64,000 bases of DNA, from NCBI GenBank assembly GCA_016765535.1, contig JAESPQ010000056.1, forward strand, positions 263 through 64,262. The letters run 5' to 3'. The DNA is from Alteromonadaceae bacterium. GTDB taxonomy: Bacteria > Pseudomonadota > Gammaproteobacteria > Enterobacterales > Alteromonadaceae. A program made the translations under genes and the position numbers. Below are positions 2,149-14,466 of this stretch, one piece after another (the first letter of the stretch is position 1; every line of letters starts with the position of its first letter). A model generated the notes under the pieces. It saw nothing but the letters and a program-made list of their open reading frames with translations. It had not been told where the DNA came from and did not search any database.

Positions 2149-3915
2149 TTAACTTTTTTCGTTATTGCTAAATAATGTCAATTGATTTTTACCATTATTT
2201 TTTGATTGATACATCGCGTGATCTGCATTATTAATTAAGGTGTTTAAGTCGTAACTAGATGTTTCACTTGATGTGATACCAAAACTAGCGGTAACTTTAA
2301 AGTTATGGCCAGTACTTTCGGTATTTATATAAGCGATCATTTTACGGTAATGTTCAGATAATTTTTCGGCTCTCTCAATACTACAACTGGGTAGTAATAT
2401 GCAGAATTCTTCACCACCTAAACGAGCAAAAATATCATTAGTGCGAATGACTTTTTGGCATGCCTTAACAACCTCTTTTAATACCCAGTCACCGCAAGCG
2501 TGACCGTAACTGTCGTTAATGTTTTTAAAATCATCTAAATCAAATAGTACACAACTTATCGACTGCTTATTTTTTTTGCAATGCTCTACGGTGGTACTAG
2601 CTACCTGAGTAAAATGCCCCCGATTAAAGATACCGGTCAATGCATCATATTCTGCTAATAAACGTAGTTGTTTTTGTGTTGAGAAGGTTTTGTAACTCCA
2701 AAAAATTAATAAAGTAACAATAGCAATTAGCATGGCAATAAATAGGCGCTCATTTTCTTGCTGAGTTTTCGTTAGTTTTTGCTGCACATTCAATAACTTA
2801 TTTTGTTTGTTTAATAAAGTTATTTGCTGTAGTTGCCGTTGGTTTTTATTTTTTGCTAATTGAAATGCCAATGTTTTTGTTTGTACTTCATTTAAATAGG
2901 TTTTATCTGCTTCGGTATACTTTTTATGATAATTAAGCGCTTGTTGGTATTTTTTGTTTTGTTGATTAATTTGATAGAGTAAAAAGTAAGCTTTAATTAT
3001 TTGCTTGGTCGTTTTTAAGCGTTTCGCTTGCAATATTGTTTGAAATGCATAATGTTCAGCTTGCTTTAAATCTTGTTTTTGCCAGAAAATTTTCGCTAAA
3101 ATTACATTGGTTTCAGCGAGTAAAAGAGGGTAATGAGTTGCTTTTATTTCATTAAAATTATCGATTAATAAAGTCAGCGCTTTATTAGTTTGATCATTTT
3201 CTACATAAAGTTGTGCTAAATAAGTACGAATCAGGTTAACTGCGATAATTTCATTAGCTACTTGGCAAGTTTTTATCCCTTGAAATATTTGAGCATTAAA
3301 AGGCAATAGTTGATCAAGGGAAAACTGCGCCTCTAAACTGAGTTGTGCAGCAATACATTGACTACGTTTATTGTTGGTTTGTTGACTTAATTGCTTCAGT
3401 TTATCTGTATAAGTTAGCCCCAGTTGGTATTGTCCTAATTGATTGTAAAAAATAGTGATAATGGATAATGCCATTGTTTTATTTTTAGTATCATTTATTG
3501 TTGGCAATAACTTTAGTATTTGAGTTAAATGTTTTAATCCAAGAGGCCAGTCTTGTATTGCGATTAATGTATTGAGAATGGTCAACCGAGTTCTAAATAT
3601 AAGAGCAGGTTCAACTGCTGTCTTAGTTAATTTTTTTAACAATTTTAATGCTTGTTGATAACGCCCTTGAAACGCTAATTGATAACCATTCAGATATCGT
3701 AAATGATTTTGTTGTTTTAGGGTTAATTTTTTCTGTTTTTTGTTTAATTGTATTAATAATTGGTTGAAGTTTTCTGGGGCGCTTCTTCTGAGTTTATCTG
3801 CTTGTATTAATGAATTTTGGTTCTGTAGATATAAATTATCGTTAGCAAGCATGGGAAATGACAATGCTAACGATAAAATTATTAATAAGACTAAGCGCCA
3901 AGTAAAAATATACAT
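2149..3915 (-). CDS. TPR-sensor diguanylate cyclase (GGDEF)
   Basis: This 588-residue membrane protein should make cyclic di-GMP from two GTP. It has an N-terminal signal segment (residues 1-25), a long helical periplasmic region resembling degenerate TPR repeats (about 30-370), a short coiled coil, one membrane span (about 391-407) and a C-terminal GGDEF domain. The active-site motif is GGEEF at residues 500-504, so it is predicted to be active. An RTND inhibitory (I) site sits five residues upstream, which implies product feedback inhibition. It starts 57 bases after the borosin precursor on the same strand, so readthrough is possible. The input signal is unknown. Confidence 0.93.
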   Translation of the reverse strand: MYIFTWRLVLLIILSLALSFPMLANDNLYLQNQNSLIQADKLRRSAPENFNQLLIQLNKKQKKLTLKQQNHLRYLNGYQLAFQGRYQQALKLLKKLTKTAVEPALIFRTRLTILNTLIAIQDWPLGLKHLTQILKLLPTINDTKNKTMALSIITIFYNQLGQYQLGLTYTDKLKQLSQQTNNKRSQCIAAQLSLEAQFSLDQLLPFNAQIFQGIKTCQVANEIIAVNLIRTYLAQLYVENDQTNKALTLLIDNFNEIKATHYPLLLAETNVILAKIFWQKQDLKQAEHYAFQTILQAKRLKTTKQIIKAYFLLYQINQQNKKYQQALNYHKKYTEADKTYLNEVQTKTLAFQLAKNKNQRQLQQITLLNKQNKLLNVQQKLTKTQQENERLFIAMLIAIVTLLIFWSYKTFSTQKQLRLLAEYDALTGIFNRGHFTQVASTTVEHCKKNKQSISCVLFDLDDFKNINDSYGHACGDWVLKEVVKACQKVIRTNDIFARLGGEEFCILLPSCSIERAEKLSEHYRKMIAYINTESTGHNFKVTASFGITSSETSSYDLNTLINNADHAMYQSKNNGKNQLTLFSNNEKS

Positions 3916-3972: not shown

Positions 3973-4242
3973 TTAACCATGAGCAATTAATTTGCTTTCT
4001 TCTGGAGTTTGTTCTGGCTCTGGTTGTTCATCAGGTGCATCATCAGGTTTAACTATAAGTATGCAAACTGTTTCAGGATAATTTTCAATATGCCTGTTAA
4101 GTTTATCGGTATCTTTTGCCATTAAGGCCTGTTTTAATTCAACATTAATATCTGCTTGATTAATGGTGTTATTTAACTGTTGTTGGTTTTGTAGTGAGGC
4201 ATCGCTGCCCATTTTTTCAAGTAGCTGAATAATATTCGACAT
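3973..4242 (-). CDS. Borosin-type (SonA-like) precursor peptide
   Basis: This 89-residue protein has a helical N-terminal region (about 1-55) resembling the borosin binding domain of Shewanella SonA: an LLEKMGSDASL start and an ALMAKDTDKL segment. It then has a hydrophobic stretch CILIV (about 60-64), an acidic Pro/Glu/Asp linker, and a C-terminus SKLIAHG. SonA, from memory, ends in a similar LVISHG stretch that carries the backbone N-methyl groups. A good ribosome site (GAAGGA) precedes the ATG. The gene follows its putative methyltransferase by 39 bases. The family call rests on the N-terminus plus the neighbour; the core position is inferred. Confidence 0.8.
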   Translation of the reverse strand: MSNIIQLLEKMGSDASLQNQQQLNNTINQADINVELKQALMAKDTDKLNRHIENYPETVCILIVKPDDAPDEQPEPEQTPEESKLIAHG

Positions 4243-4281
4243 TATTTATTCCTTCTTTTATTGTTGATCTTAAAATAATCG

Positions 4282-5094
4282 TTAGGTGTTTTCTAGCTGT
4301 GCATACTCATCTTTTTCTTGTTGAGCAATAACCGCAAGTTTATTGAGTATAGCGGTATTTTTTTGCATTGCTTGACAAGGTGGAATAACTAAAGTGGTGT
4401 GCATAGACAATTTTGCATCAATTAATTCGCTTAATAAAATTGTTTCTTTGCGTACAGTGTCTATGGGCAATACTTTTGCTTCATATAAAATTACTTGATG
4501 GTTAAGCGGATATGTTGTTGTTAATAAGTCTAGCAATACTTGCCGATAAGCGACACCTGTTGCAAATTTACCTAAACTTTTATCGCCCGCGACACCTATT
4601 TGCCATAAAATAAGTTGTGCACTAGGGTCGATAATGCGTTGGTAAAACATAAACTGGCTGGCTTCGTATTGTTGACAACCTACCTTACCTGGGTCTATGC
4701 CTAAATCGGCGATTAAGCAGTCTTCGGCAGAAATGCCAGCTTCCATATAAGCACTAAACCCTAATTGCTGTGCTATTTGTATGGTTTTATGTGGAACACC
4801 AGCAAAAACTCCTGGATGACCATAGAATGCGCCAACGACTTTTTTACCAGCTTTTATCTCAAAAATAATAGCCGATACCATTTGATCATAAGAGATCGTG
4901 CGCGATTTACCTTCTTGATAATATTCTTGTAAGCTACGGACATCAGAGTGCATTTCTTCAAGCCATAATTGTACTAAGCCATTAGACATTAGCGAAAAAA
5001 CCACATCGGCTTGTTCAATATGACTACGACATATTGGCGTTATATGTGCACCTAAGGTCATTCCTAAACCAACACAAACTAAGCTTCCTGACAT
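4282..5094 (-). CDS. SonM-like borosin alpha-N-methyltransferase
   Basis: This 270-residue TP-methylase-fold protein closely resembles SonM of Shewanella, which transfers methyl groups from SAM to backbone amides of its separate precursor. Visible features are the start SGSLVCVGLGMTLGAH, the YGHPGVF motif (Y91-F97), EAGISAEDCLIADLGIDPG, and a Tyr/Arg/Tyr set (Y58 or Y59, R65, Y69) placed like the catalytic residues recalled for SonM. Tetrapyrrole methylases share the fold, but a 270-residue stand-alone copy beside a SonA-like peptide argues for borosin synthesis. GAGG lies five bases before the ATG. Confidence 0.88.
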   Translation of the reverse strand: MSGSLVCVGLGMTLGAHITPICRSHIEQADVVFSLMSNGLVQLWLEEMHSDVRSLQEYYQEGKSRTISYDQMVSAIIFEIKAGKKVVGAFYGHPGVFAGVPHKTIQIAQQLGFSAYMEAGISAEDCLIADLGIDPGKVGCQQYEASQFMFYQRIIDPSAQLILWQIGVAGDKSLGKFATGVAYRQVLLDLLTTTYPLNHQVILYEAKVLPIDTVRKETILLSELIDAKLSMHTTLVIPPCQAMQKNTAILNKLAVIAQQEKDEYAQLENT

Positions 5095-5231: not shown

Positions 5232-5792
5232 TCATAAAATTTTTGTGATTATTGTTTGTTGCCAATTTTGTTGTTTGTATATACCACAAACATTATTTAA
5301 ATCATTGGTTAAGCTAAATTGAAAACCTAGCTTTTTTGCTAAATGCTTAATGGATAAATTTTCATTACAAAAGCGAATATTGATGTGTGATAGCTTTAAT
5401 TGTTTAAAACCATATTCCATTAATGCGCCTAATGCTTCGGTCGATAATGATTTTTTTTGTGCTTGTAGTGCTAGCACGATGCCAGTTTCAGGGGGAATAA
5501 CATCACTTAAAGCACTTTTAGAGGTAGTGTTTTTAGGTTTGTTAATAATAAGTGTTTGCAAACCTATTGATTGATTTGTAACGTTATCAATAATTACCCA
5601 TGTTAAAAAATAAGGTTTTTTTTCATGCATTAGTCTTAAAGTACGAGTAAAACCTATTTTTGCATCGCTTGGTGTTAACGGTTTTCCAATATAATGCATG
5701 ATTTTTTTATTGGTATATAAAGCACTATATAGCGCTTTATCTTGTGTTGATAAAGGTCGTATTAATAAACGTTTGGTGGTAAAAGTATGCAT
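5232..5792 (-). CDS. GNAT family N-acetyltransferase
   Basis: This is a predicted acetyl-CoA-dependent acetyltransferase of the RimJ/RimL-like class; the substrate is unknown. The chosen start gives MHTFTTKRLLIRPLSTQD, the classic N-terminus of this family, and a 186-residue protein of normal length. The frame stays open for 40 more codons upstream, but those residues are not family-like and overlap the neighbouring recombinase remnant. Visible motifs are IGLQTLIIN (strand 4), a divergent acetyl-CoA loop (ALQAQKKSLSTEALGALMEY) and the C-terminal NENLSIKHLAKKLGFQ helix. The standard QxxGxG/A motif is poorly conserved. Confidence 0.8.
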   Translation of the reverse strand: MHTFTTKRLLIRPLSTQDKALYSALYTNKKIMHYIGKPLTPSDAKIGFTRTLRLMHEKKPYFLTWVIIDNVTNQSIGLQTLIINKPKNTTSKSALSDVIPPETGIVLALQAQKKSLSTEALGALMEYGFKQLKLSHINIRFCNENLSIKHLAKKLGFQFSLTNDLNNVCGIYKQQNWQQTIITKIL

Positions 5793-5826: not shown

Positions 5827-6093
5827 CTAGGTATTGTGTATGGCATCAATAAAACGCCCAAGTTTATCGTCTTTAGTATTATCACCCTTAAAAGCACTGA
5901 TACCACGGTCAACTATTTTAACTAAGTCCAAGCCTTGCTCAGATGTAATATCACGTGCCGTTTTTAATTGACGTTCAAGTGTTGTGCCTTTGGCTTGCTT
6001 GTCACTTGACCAACGAATATAGGAATAGCATTTAGTTTTAGTTGAGGGTATAAACCAGTGAATGTTGTTGTTTGATGTTGCTAATACTGGCAC
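5827..6093 (-). pseudogene. Serine recombinase N-terminal fragment
   Basis: The readable 88 residues contain a resolvase-type catalytic N-terminus: YSYIRWSSDKQAKGTTLERQ has the R..S and Q spacing of the nucleophile region. DRGISAFKGDN follows, as in large serine recombinases. The frame ends after about 88 residues with no DNA-binding half, whereas intact enzymes are several times longer. It is therefore a remnant of a phage or integrative element. It is wedged between the GNAT gene and a J-domain gene. Confidence 0.75.
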
Positions 6094-6401: not shown

Positions 6402-7172
6402 ATGGATTTCAATAAAGATTATTATGCTATTTTAGGTGTATTACCAACTACTGAGTTAGTTGTTATCAAAGCAGCATATAAAGCAATGTTCAAAGTTTAT
6501 CACCCCGATAAATTTAATGGTTCAAAAGCAGAGGCACACGCTAAAACGATTGAAATAAACGAAGCATATTCAATATTAATAAATATAAATAAACGCAAAG
6601 AGTATGATGAATCACGCGATAATAATGACGATAAAGCATATTCATATAAAGAAGAATCCAAAACAGAAGATGATTTTTCTTCAGGTTTTTATACCTTAGA
6701 AAAAGACTGGCAAGTTGCTATTAAGTATCAGCCTGAACTTGTTGGTATTGTGGATGCACTATCAAAAATATCTTCAAAGTTAGCCTTTACATATAAAGCA
6801 TATATTATCGAATTAAAGGCGTTTGATCAGAAAACAAGTATCGCTGATAAAATGGAACAAGAATACTTGTCTTTATATTTTGGCACTGATAAGCAAATTC
6901 AAGTTTTTGCTAAAGCACTTATTATTAGTAATCACAGAGATGCCGCAAGAGAATTGAACAAAGCAATAACAGTGCTAGGTAAAGGTGTTGATGTTGATAT
7001 AGTTATTAAACAAATTAAAAGTGAATTTAATTTGTATCCATTTGTGCCTACTAAGAAAAATGATGCACATAAAGGTAAGGAAAGCGAAACAAGAGAATTT
7101 GCTTTTTTATGGTTCTCAATAATTGTATTGCCAATAATTTTGGTAATATATGCATTCGCTTTTGCAAAATAA
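6402..7172 (+). CDS. J-domain protein with C-terminal membrane anchor
   Basis: This 256-residue protein starts with a J domain (residues 5-70): DYYAILGV, the invariant HPD at residues 34-36, then NEAYSILININKRKEYD. J domains stimulate the ATPase of DnaK-type chaperones. The Gly/Phe and zinc regions of true DnaJ are absent. A helical middle of unknown function follows, and one hydrophobic segment (about 233-254) ends the protein, predicting membrane anchoring with the J domain in the cytosol. It stands alone beside an integration remnant and may be accessory. The client is unknown. Confidence 0.85.
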   Translation: MDFNKDYYAILGVLPTTELVVIKAAYKAMFKVYHPDKFNGSKAEAHAKTIEINEAYSILININKRKEYDESRDNNDDKAYSYKEESKTEDDFSSGFYTLEKDWQVAIKYQPELVGIVDALSKISSKLAFTYKAYIIELKAFDQKTSIADKMEQEYLSLYFGTDKQIQVFAKALIISNHRDAARELNKAITVLGKGVDVDIVIKQIKSEFNLYPFVPTKKNDAHKGKESETREFAFLWFSIIVLPIILVIYAFAFAK

Positions 7173-7290: not shown

Positions 7291-8736
7291 ATGTCCGTAG
7301 AGCAATTCGACCCAAGCACAAGTAATTCAGCCAAAAGCCAAACAACCACCTTAGACATTCCATCTAAAATGATTGAAGAGCAACATCAAGAAGTTTTCAC
7401 ATCACACCCAGAAGCAAATCGCTCTGCAAAGATAGGCTTCGTATCTCTTGGCTGCCCAAAAAATTTAGTCGACTCAGAGCGCATCCTCACCCAGCTTCGC
7501 ACAGAAGGTTATGACGTAACCAACAGCTATGATGATGCAGAGTTAGTGATAGTTAATACCTGTGGTTTTATTGATTCAGCAGTCAAAGAGTCACTTGACA
7601 CTATTGGGGAAGCGTTAGCAGAAAATGGCAAAGTACTGGTCACTGGTTGCTTAGGCGCGAAAAAAGATGAAATTATTGAATTACACCCGAATGTTTTAGG
7701 TGTTACTGGCCCTCATGCTTACGATGAAGTATTGGCTCAAGTACATAAACATGTGGCTAAACCAAAACACAATCCGTTTATTGATCTAGTTCCACCTCAA
7801 GGCGTTAAATTAACACCTAAGCATTACGCCTATTTAAAAATATCGGAAGGCTGCAACCACCGCTGTACTTTTTGTATTATCCCATCAATGCGTGGCGATT
7901 TAGACTCACGACCTGTCGGTGATGTATTAGGAGAAGCTCAACGTTTAGTTAAAGCTGGCGTTAAAGAATTATTAGTTATCTCACAAGACACTTCTGCTTA
8001 TGGTGTTGATGTTAAGCATAAGCTAGATTTCTACGAAGGCATGCCCGTTAAAACGCATATGCAGCAACTTTGTGAAGAATTAGCGAAGCAGGGCGTGTGG
8101 ATTCGCTTACATTATGTTTATCCTTATCCGCATGTTGATAAAATCATACCTCTTATGGCGGAAGGGAAAATATTACCGTATTTAGACATTCCGTTTCAAC
8201 ACGCTAATAAACGTATTTTAAAACTGATGAAACGTCCAGGTAGCTCAGATAGAGTGTTAGAATGTATTGCTAAATGGCGTGAAATTTGTCCTGAACTCGT
8301 TATTCGCTCAACGTTTATAGTAGGTTTCCCCGGTGAAACCGAAGAAGAGTTTGAAGAGTTATTAGATTTTCTTGAAGAAGCTCAGCTTGATCGTGTTGGT
8401 TGTTTTAAATACTCGCCAGTAGAAGGTGCGACCGCCAATGCTTTACCTGATCATGTTTCAGATGAAGTAATGGAAGAACGCTTACAACGATTTATGGCAG
8501 TACAAGCAAAAATCAGCGCGGATAAATTACAAGCACGTATTGGGCAAGAATATTTAATTCTAATTGATGAAGTTAATGACCTTGGCGCAGTAGGGCGCTC
8601 GTATATGGATGCACCAGAAATTGATGGCAAAGTGTATTTGTCTGACGATTTTGATGCCAAGCCGGGTGATTTGATTTGGGTACAAATTATTCATGCCGAC
8701 GAACATGATGTTTGGGGTGTTAGAGTAGAAGATTAA
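7291..8736 (+). CDS. rimO: Ribosomal protein S12 methylthiotransferase RimO
   Basis: RimO is a radical SAM enzyme that adds a methylthio group to an aspartate of ribosomal protein S12. The N-terminal MTTase domain has its three cluster cysteines (SLGCPKN, VNTCGF, TGCLG). The radical SAM motif is CNHRCTFC, and a C-terminal TRAM domain follows. The 481-residue length includes an extension of about 45 residues before [12 protein letters not shown]. The extension resembles that of Shewanella RimO ([10 protein letters not shown]), which supports this start although no clear Shine-Dalgarno is present. It is monocistronic. Confidence 0.96.
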
Positions 8737-12945: not shown

Positions 12946-14466
12946 TCAATCGTTTTGCTCTTTAAAACTTGGACAAGCGGCAATCACCATATCCTTTCCT
13001 TGATCATCGGCTTGTACTAATTTTACGTCAAATTGCCATAAATGATGTAAATGTTTTAATACTTCATTTTTAGAATCACCTAGGGGAACATTATTTTGCG
13101 GTATATAACGTAAGGTTAGCGATCTATCGCCATTAATGTCTGCATTTATCACTTGAATATTTACTTCTAAATTACTCAAATTATATTGACTCGATAACAT
13201 CGTTCTAATTTTTTGATAACCTTGCTCATTATGAATGGCGGCAACCTCAAGATAGTTTTTATCTTCATTATCATTAATATGAAATAATTTGAAATCACGA
13301 ATTAATTTAGGCGATAAATATTGACTAATAAAGCTTTCATCCTTGAAACTTTCCATCGCAAAATGCAATGTATCTAACCAATTGCTGCCTGCGATTTCAG
13401 GAAACCATTCTCTATCTTCATCGGTCGGATTTTCACAAATTCGACGAATATCCATAAACATATTAAATCCTAGTGCATAAGGATTAATTCCTGAATAATA
13501 AGGGCTATTATATTCAGGTTGAGCAACCACATTGGTATGGTTATGTAAAAATTCCAACATAAATTTGTTGGTAACCAAACCTTCATCATAAAGGTGATTT
13601 AAAATGGTGTAATGCCAAAAACAAGCCCAACCTTCGTTCATTACCTGAGTTTGTTTTTGTGGATAAAAATATTGTGAAATTTTTCTAACTATTCTAACTA
13701 TTTCGCGTTGCCATGATTTTAATAAAGGCGCATTTTTTTCGATAAAATAGAGAATGTTCTCTTGTGGTTCTGCAGGAAATGTTATGCTTTTATCATTTGT
13801 TTTATCAGGGCTTTTAGGTAGTGTTCGCCATAAGGTATTTACTTGCGATTGCATGTATTCTTCACGATCTTTTTGACGTTTCAATTCTTCGTCTAGTGAT
13901 AGCTTTTGTGGCCTTTTGTAGCGATCAACACCATGATTCATTAAAGCATGGCAAGCATCAAGTGTTGCTTCAACCTCATCTATACCATATTTGTGTTCAC
14001 AATCAGCAATGTACTTTTTAGCAAAGAGTAAATAATCTATAATAGAATCGGCATCGGTCCATGTTTTAAATAAATAATTGTTTTTGAAGAAAGAATTGTG
14101 ACCATAACAAGCGTGTGCCATGACTAAAGCTTGCATTGGCATGGTATTTTCTTCCATAAGATAGGATATACAAGGGTTTGAATTAATAACAATTTCATAA
14201 GCAAGCCCCATACGACCACGTTTATAGGTTTGCTCAGTTTGAATAAATTTTTTACCAAAAGTCCAATGATTATAACCAATAGGCATGCCTACACTAGCAT
14301 AAGCGTCCATCATCTGTTCGGTGGTGATCACTTCAATTTGGTTTGTATAAGTATCTAATCGATAATGTTTGGCTACGCGTTCAATTTCGGCTTGATATTG
14401 CTCAAGTAAATTAAAAGTCCAATCGGCGCAGTCATCTAATGGCCTATTTCTTTTTTCTTGTGTCAT
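12946..14466 (-). CDS. SpoVR family protein (YcgB)
   Basis: This 506-residue cytosolic protein belongs to the SpoVR/YcgB family, of uncertain biochemical role. Recognisable parts are MAHACYGHNSFFKNNYLF, QTQVMNEGWACFWHYTILN, and NPYALGFNMFMDIRRICENP. These hold His/Glu residues that could bind metal. It is the last gene of a prkA-yeaH-spoVR operon, 79 bases after yeaH. In E. coli ycgB sits beside fadR, as here, but is not joined to yeaG-yeaH. The operon is associated with stationary-phase and starvation responses in known species. Confidence 0.93.
   Translation of the reverse strand: MTQEKRNRPLDDCADWTFNLLEQYQAEIERVAKHYRLDTYTNQIEVITTEQMMDAYASVGMPIGYNHWTFGKKFIQTEQTYKRGRMGLAYEIVINSNPCISYLMEENTMPMQALVMAHACYGHNSFFKNNYLFKTWTDADSIIDYLLFAKKYIADCEHKYGIDEVEATLDACHALMNHGVDRYKRPQKLSLDEELKRQKDREEYMQSQVNTLWRTLPKSPDKTNDKSITFPAEPQENILYFIEKNAPLLKSWQREIVRIVRKISQYFYPQKQTQVMNEGWACFWHYTILNHLYDEGLVTNKFMLEFLHNHTNVVAQPEYNSPYYSGINPYALGFNMFMDIRRICENPTDEDREWFPEIAGSNWLDTLHFAMESFKDESFISQYLSPKLIRDFKLFHINDNEDKNYLEVAAIHNEQGYQKIRTMLSSQYNLSNLEVNIQVINADINGDRSLTLRYIPQNNVPLGDSKNEVLKHLHHLWQFDVKLVQADDQGKDMVIAACPSFKEQND

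Follow-up and report, generated by a model that had tools for sequence, protein, structure and literature searches.

Split borosin systems, their borosin-binding domain (BBD) and their N-methylation have already been described (PMC8429565, PMC11395268, PMC11285071). The closest described system is SonM/SonA of Shewanella oneidensis MR-1 (PMC8429565, PDB 7LTC), in which a separate methyltransferase (MT), SonM, is followed by a precursor, SonA, whose BBD consists of five helices spanning residues 1–53. Residues Y58, R67, Y71, Y93, F99, W166 and Q167 of SonM are described in the same paper. In PMC11395268, the Figure 1 legend on borosin architectures includes the definition of a GGDEF domain, so that some GGDEF link has already been drawn in print. 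Beyond this legend, the literature found holds no link of borosins to c-di-GMP or signaling; the words diguanylate and operon do not occur in the main text of PMC8429565, and a full-text search, with the central subscription papers outside its scope, returned no paper containing both borosin and di-GMP. A biological role for bacterial split borosins is likewise not stated in the passages of the literature covered. The locus described here belongs to a kind that has been in print since 2021, the type IV split borosins; its chemistry is known, and its coupling to a TPR sensor is the new part.

The window, by which we mean the entire stretch of 64,000 nucleotides that was analysed, comes from a draft Alteromonadaceae assembly of 3.6 Mb in 128 contigs that is 86% complete. 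The original prediction had placed in it a 270-residue enzyme of the TP-methylase fold followed 39 bp later by an 89-residue peptide; both reading frames, their spacing and the motifs quoted for them were all found in the sequence, and both genes lie on the minus strand with ATG starts (Table 1). In the direction of transcription the order is GNAT, MT, precursor and TPR-GGDEF protein, with gaps of 137, 39 and 57 bp, the last measured from the precursor stop. The nearest named locus, L002, comes from an Alteromonadaceae MAG and encodes an enzyme 88% identical to the window MT. In comparison with L002 the dN/dS ratio (NG86) was lowest for the MT (0.07), followed by the TPR-GGDEF protein (0.11), the precursor (0.18) and the GNAT (0.30); dS was close to 1 or higher. 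Given that dN lies well below dS for the MT, precursor and TPR-GGDEF genes, and given the SonM match and the BBD-type stretches at MT loci reported below, we judge that these frames are not due to chance. The number of promoter-like sites, 22, did not depart from the 24.3 expected by chance, and terminator-like sites were uninformative. Just upstream of the GNAT, positions 5827–6093 of the minus strand encode a fragment of a serine resolvase N-terminal domain (PF00239, e-value 2e-7); it stands where some relatives have a pepsin-like gene and is possibly the scar of an old insertion or deletion. Further along, a DnaJ-domain protein with a hydrophobic C-terminus (6402–7172, plus strand), which shows no sign of membership in the borosin cluster, adjoins an open reading frame at 7291–8736 that resembles rimO.

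Table 1. Features of the split borosin locus, in window coordinates.
Feature	Position	Strand	Size and evidence
Split borosin alpha-N-methyltransferase (SonM family)	4282..5094	-	270 aa; PDB SonM E 1.4e-74; PF00590 E 1.4e-12
Precursor ORF	3973..4242	-	89 aa
Precursor residues 1-54, borosin-binding domain (leader)	4081..4242	-	SonA profile match, five predicted helices
Remainder of precursor (residues 55-89): putative core around PETVCILIVKPDD, then acidic tail	3973..4080	-	Alignment with relatives and SonA
Membrane TPR-GGDEF protein, proposed receptor	2149..3915	-	588 aa; Pfam GGDEF E 1.3e-45
GNAT acetyltransferase (PF13302)	5232..5792	-	Pfam E 5.5e-20

The best PDB match of the enzyme is SonM, over residues 3–255, with 128 of 254 aligned residues identical (50%); the fungal fused borosins OphMA/dbOphMA match far less well, with e-values of about 1e-40. 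All seven SonM residues listed above, which belong to its active-site and lock positions, are kept in each of the 73 sequences counted, that of the window included, and E173 of SonM is replaced by D in all 73. These observations bear out the claim that the enzyme is SonM-like. A reading as a tetrapyrrole methylase of cobalamin or siroheme synthesis, with an unrelated small frame beside it, could appeal to the Pfam match, which reaches only the TP_methylase superfamily (PF00590) and none of the CobA, CysG or precorrin subfamilies. Against it stand the SonM match, the conserved key residues and the BBD-type neighbor found at nearly every MT locus. The NCBIfam precorrin and YabN models scored far below their cut-offs, so that, as judged by profile models, the clustering with cobalamin or siroheme methylases that the original prediction had named as its refutation was not seen. 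We therefore reject the tetrapyrrole methylase identity, which is for practical purposes already refuted.

Single-sequence searches of the precursor against Pfam, NCBIfam and PDB gave no useful match, and a profile was therefore needed. A profile of 36 precursor sequences ranked the seven SonA sequences of PDB first, with a best e-value of 9.4e-6 over residues 1–54. The structural model (mean pLDDT 74) shows helices at residues 3–13, 15–18, 20–29, 34–41 and 45–52, with the remainder unstructured; in a Foldseek search of this model the SonA chains again ranked first, but with e-values above 1 that are not significant. The profile match and the five predicted helices support the claim of a separate SonA-like precursor with a helical N-terminal domain. 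An HMM built from 11 precursors, that of the window among them, detected a BBD-type stretch (e-value up to 0.1) at 107 of 110 MT loci, a set which includes some genomes twice; a few of these matches lie inside reading frames of more than 165 residues and a few on the far side of the MT. With neighboring but separate genes, an MT homologous to SonM and a five-helix BBD at the start of the precursor, the locus is, by its sequence, a type IV split borosin. It shares with SonM/SonA the separate MT and BBD-containing precursor, their order and the catalytic residues, and the locus of a 99% SonM relative also has a TPR-GGDEF gene alongside. It differs from SonM/SonA in the 50% identity of the MT, in the presence of a GNAT, and in the precursor, which is longer, carries an acidic tail and, in agreement with the original prediction, has a core unlike that of SonA. 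The SonA of PDB has the core SGDSSYQSYLVISHGNGD, and the 99% SonM relative L238 has SGDQDYQAFLLVNHGNN. By analogy, the backbone of the window precursor is probably methylated in its hydrophobic core.

The model of the TPR-GGDEF protein (mean pLDDT 92.7) comprises TPR helices up to about residue 320, a single long helix at 323–422 and a GGDEF domain at 421–578. Pfam matched GGDEF over the whole model and TPR_12 below its cut-off. Hydropathy peaks at residues 6–24, which form a hydrophobic N-terminus, and at 391–409, a transmembrane segment, and from this topology the TPR part would be periplasmic. The GGEEF motif, D459, D461, C187 and C217 are invariant in 46 TPR-GGDEF sequences, and R491 and D494 of the RxxD inhibitory site are present in at least 90% of them; the complete domain, the GGEEF motif and the RxxD site mark the neighbor as a predicted diguanylate cyclase. 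The source genome has 26 matches to this protein, itself included, of which it alone is a full-length match. In a Foldseek search of the model, GGDEF structures were among the 50 matches listed; RapF was among weak and non-significant PDB matches of the TPR half (e-value 0.25).

We then asked how regularly such a sensor accompanies the enzyme. Among 196 genomes of the family, 78 have an MT (one locus each was considered, with up to 7 kb per side), and in 77 of these a TPR sensor lies beside it. TPR-GGDEF proteins account for most of these sensors, 55 lying downstream of the MT and 4 upstream, all on its strand. The remainder are 16 long TPR proteins, all downstream, a TPR-HisKA protein by Pfam (L140), and, in L152, a TPR-GGDEF protein encoded together with the precursor beside the MT but on the opposite strand. 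The sole exception, L147, has an MT, a precursor-like reading frame and, on the other strand, a GGDEF gene without a TPR match. The long TPR proteins sit with the most distant enzymes, all 17 such loci being at an MT identity of 46% or less; the four of the 17 scanned by Pfam are all hybrid histidine kinases of the architecture TPR-HisKA-HATPase-REC, and in L153 the long TPR kinase is followed by a REC-GGDEF gene. In L146, three short secreted-looking peptides, two of which share KPPVERPTHTVCIL, stand in a row downstream of the TPR kinase (12955–13624, minus strand).

The association also holds in reverse. A strong TPR-GGDEF match (e-value at most 1e-60, with up to six candidates scored per genome) was present in 57 of the 78 genomes with an MT vs 3 of the 118 without, giving a Fisher p of 9e-28 that ignores phylogeny. 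An MT stands no more than 8 kb away from 75 of the 88 TPR-GGDEF copies, and 74 of these share its strand. Among the 80 named relatives, the fetched stretch around the MT includes a member of the TPR-GGDEF family in at least 65 (encoded opposite to the MT in L048); this is a minimum, since contig ends and thresholds remove cases. The SonM clade, within the genus of L003 (Shewanella), has an MT in 52 of 60 genomes and a TPR-GGDEF gene in 50 of these 52 loci, the two lacking it being L286 and the short contig L304; at the locus with 99% SonM, the TPR-GGDEF gene starts 6 bp after the SonA-like stop. Across 137 precursor/TPR-GGDEF pairs, chosen at spacings of −150 to 300 bp, the median gap is 11 bp. 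A sample of 398 genomes of the phylum yielded 15 with an MT, nine of them outside the family. The ten loci of these nine genomes, six of which coincide with loci of other sets, include nine with a TPR protein next to the MT (eight TPR-GGDEF and one TPR protein of 951 residues); the tenth has a fused protein of 1174 residues and no TPR neighbor. A fusion of this length in L267 (6327–9851, with the MT oriented plus) joins a borosin-type MT domain at its N-terminus to a long C-terminal region.

The 13 TPR-GGDEF copies away from an MT lie in ten loci. Six of them, in three loci (L215–L217), have a BBD precursor alongside: each locus combines this precursor and a GNAT with two TPR-GGDEF genes and lacks an MT in its vicinity, and the genomes have an MT elsewhere. 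We regard these as candidate orphan peptide/receptor sets. The other seven copies, in seven loci (L218–L224), have neither an MT nor a precursor alongside at e-values up to 0.5, and three of these genomes have no MT match at all. This suggests that some members of the sensor family work without a borosin, or with an unrecognised one, and that the family is not strictly tied to borosins. The seven solitary copies would suit an ordinary split borosin product, for example a defensive one, whose production is controlled by c-di-GMP, with the TPR-GGDEF protein serving as local regulator without sensing the peptide. The tight, operon-like linkage would equally be expected of such a product, and hydrophobic, variable cores are common in RiPPs whatever their function. 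However, this explanation does not predict precursor and TPR-GGDEF sets lacking an MT, as in L215–L217, nor a core that covaries with the TPR ectodomain rather than with the MT or the GGDEF domain, as is described next, and we consider it unlikely.

To examine covariation widely we used 137 non-redundant precursor/TPR-GGDEF pairs, among which 139 between-locus comparisons have a GGDEF identity of at least 0.75. In 47 of these the TPR identity falls below 0.5, with median identities of 0.39 for the BBD, 0.36 for core plus tail and 0.86 for the MT; in the other 92 the medians are 0.63 for the TPR region, 0.69 for the BBD, 0.46 for the core and 0.83 for the MT. Where the GGDEF identity is 0.85 or more, the ten low-TPR comparisons show identities of 0.23–0.37 up to residue 320 and 0.82–0.96 from residue 361 onwards. 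The corresponding values in 33 non-swap comparisons are 0.56–0.77 and 0.85–0.96, the former indicating that the ectodomain varies faster than the GGDEF domain in general. Over the 265 comparisons in the GGDEF band of 0.7–0.9, the Spearman correlation of TPR identity is 0.77 with the precursor and −0.02 with the MT. A contrast between paralogues within loci was also considered; it was unexceptional against between-locus pairs of equal GGDEF identity, 4 to 22% of which are as low in TPR identity, and we therefore do not count it as separate proof.

The SonM clade allows the core to be separated from the rest of the precursor. In 50 triads of this clade, the partial correlation of core with TPR, given BBD, MT and GGDEF, is 0.572 (reached in 0 of 999 permutations), and the other partial values are 0.353 for BBD with TPR, 0.394 for BBD with MT, −0.035 for core with MT and 0.010 for core with GGDEF; p-values are only indicative here, since the pairs and genomes are not phylogenetically independent. 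Pairing L275 to the nearer of its two precursors gave 0.615 for core with TPR, 0.335 for BBD with TPR, 0.401 for BBD with MT, −0.055 for core with MT and −0.015 for core with GGDEF, and on leaving out the three two-precursor loci (n = 47) the same five values were 0.585, 0.349, 0.385, −0.033 and 0.014. When the MT identity is 0.88 or more (54 pairs), the Spearman correlation with TPR is 0.82–0.85 for the core, 0.19 for the BBD, 0.29–0.30 for the MT and 0.17–0.19 for GGDEF; for the 40 pairs without two-precursor loci these become 0.85, 0.36, 0.51 and 0.23. Counter to a reading of the core as the ligand, the BBD covaries with the TPR region too, at 0.34–0.35 in the SonM clade, where the value for the core is higher.

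The same pattern can be followed in the DNA. The Shewanella pair L268/L269 is 99% identical in the MT, 96% in the BBD and 98% in the GGDEF domain, and only 41% in the core and 39% in the TPR region. In 90-nucleotide bins, DNA identity is 0.92–1.00 over the MT and about 0.97 over the BBD, drops near the border of BBD and core to about 0.5 throughout core and TPR, and recovers at the start of the long helix to 0.89–0.99 over helix and GGDEF. L270/L241 and L278/L245 show the same mosaic with slightly lower flanks, and the same-allele controls L269/L238 and L271/L270 have flat profiles. The breakpoint between TPR and helix recurs outside the SonM clade in L202/L188, L019/L017, L076/L073 and L209/L053, which comprise one pair each from Pseudoxanthomonas and Rhodanobacter and two further pairs; the MT is also divergent in L076/L073 and L209/L053, and L079/L070 is a flat control. 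Cores of the SonM clade include two allele types, YLVIS and FLLVN. L268 and L272 each have two SonA-like candidate frames between MT and TPR-GGDEF gene. The first of the two lacks a clear start and carries a core of the FLLVNHGN type; it looks like a remnant of an exchange.

Given that the coding regions of core and TPR are adjacent, a single recombination tract could move both, which explains part of the correlation. Taken to its limit, core and TPR would merely lie in a recombination hot spot and be exchanged together without interacting, and the wide set, in which the BBD covaries with the TPR region more strongly than the core does (0.44 vs 0.30), favors such an account, as does the adjacency. 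What it does not accommodate is that in three Shewanella pairs the breakpoints lie close to the borders between BBD and core and between TPR and helix, and that the latter breakpoint recurs in Pseudoxanthomonas, Rhodanobacter and two further pairs; pure linkage also leaves unexplained why core and TPR are the very parts with divergent alleles. We hold it to be quite improbable. Breakpoints near domain boundaries in several genera, together with divergent alleles, point to a functional bond, and on this ground we read the borosin as the ligand of the sensor. The link to the TPR-GGDEF gene, which the original prediction had raised only in passing and without a signaling role, proves far stronger than could be told from the sequence alone, in view of the 77 of 78 pairings, the reverse association and the covariation in relatives.

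Our main reading of the window locus, to which we assign a probability of roughly 0.7, is that the peptide, once N-methylated and processed, serves as ligand for the neighboring TPR sensor and sets c-di-GMP. In this scheme the MT would bind the precursor through its N-terminal BBD and N-methylate backbone amides of the core, as in SonM/SonA; a protease, pepsin-like in some relatives, would free the core, and the GNAT may cap it. Once in the periplasm or outside, the methylated peptide would bind the neighboring membrane protein at its TPR ectodomain; the long helix would relay the signal to the GGDEF domain, and c-di-GMP would change. The comparisons turned up no swap partner for the window locus, its TPR and GGDEF regions being 72% and 87% identical to those of L002; the extension to the window, which would behave like the Shewanella loci, therefore rests on family membership. 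More broadly, we lean, somewhat less firmly, towards seeing the gammaproteobacterial split borosins as allelic peptide pheromones, in which the core is the ligand of a periplasmic TPR ectodomain, matched blocks are exchanged between species and the output is c-di-GMP, either directly or via a TPR histidine kinase.

The maturation steps are suggested by recurrent neighbors. Of the 78 family loci, 49 have a GNAT near the MT and on its strand, a gene that the original prediction had not mentioned for the window; 19 have a pepsin-like protease near the MT, always together with a GNAT. The closest cluster type is that of a second Shewanella clade (L250–L257), where the genes run pepsin-like, GNAT, MT and TPR-GGDEF in six of eight loci, five of the six with an HMM-called precursor before the TPR-GGDEF gene; the window differs in having no pepsin-like gene alongside. 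None was found elsewhere in the incomplete source genome either, in a search without a working positive control, for which reason we do not claim its absence. Lee et al. are said to have reported in 2024 that shewasin A cleaves a borosin precursor; the full-text literature search returned no paper combining borosin with pepsin-like aspartic. No exporter was recognised among the recurrent neighbor clusters listed, taken without individual annotation.

If true, the matched pair of peptide and receptor would give bacterial borosins a role, namely that of a RiPP signal sensed through a diguanylate cyclase with a TPR domain. S. oneidensis MR-1 offers a test ground with enzyme, precursor and structures in hand, and the natural core/TPR swaps are ready controls.

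Two known classes of peptide signaling provide the closest parallels. In pherotype systems such as agr, ComQXPA and CSP/ComD, the signal and the sensor half of the receptor vary and move as a block, and the output half is conserved. The relatives of the window locus display this pattern, with core and TPR ectodomain covarying and swapping together, and enzyme and output domain staying the same. Pherotype signals are not known to be backbone N-methylated, however, and their receptors are membrane histidine kinases, whereas here the TPR ectodomain would drive a GGDEF domain. The RRNPP receptors (Rap, NprR, PlcR) are cytosolic proteins with a TPR domain and a DNA-binding or phosphatase output. 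They resemble the present sensor in that a TPR domain is proposed to read a linear peptide, but the hydrophobic N-terminus, the transmembrane segment, the GGDEF output and the predicted location of the TPR domain outside the cytosol set it apart from that class.
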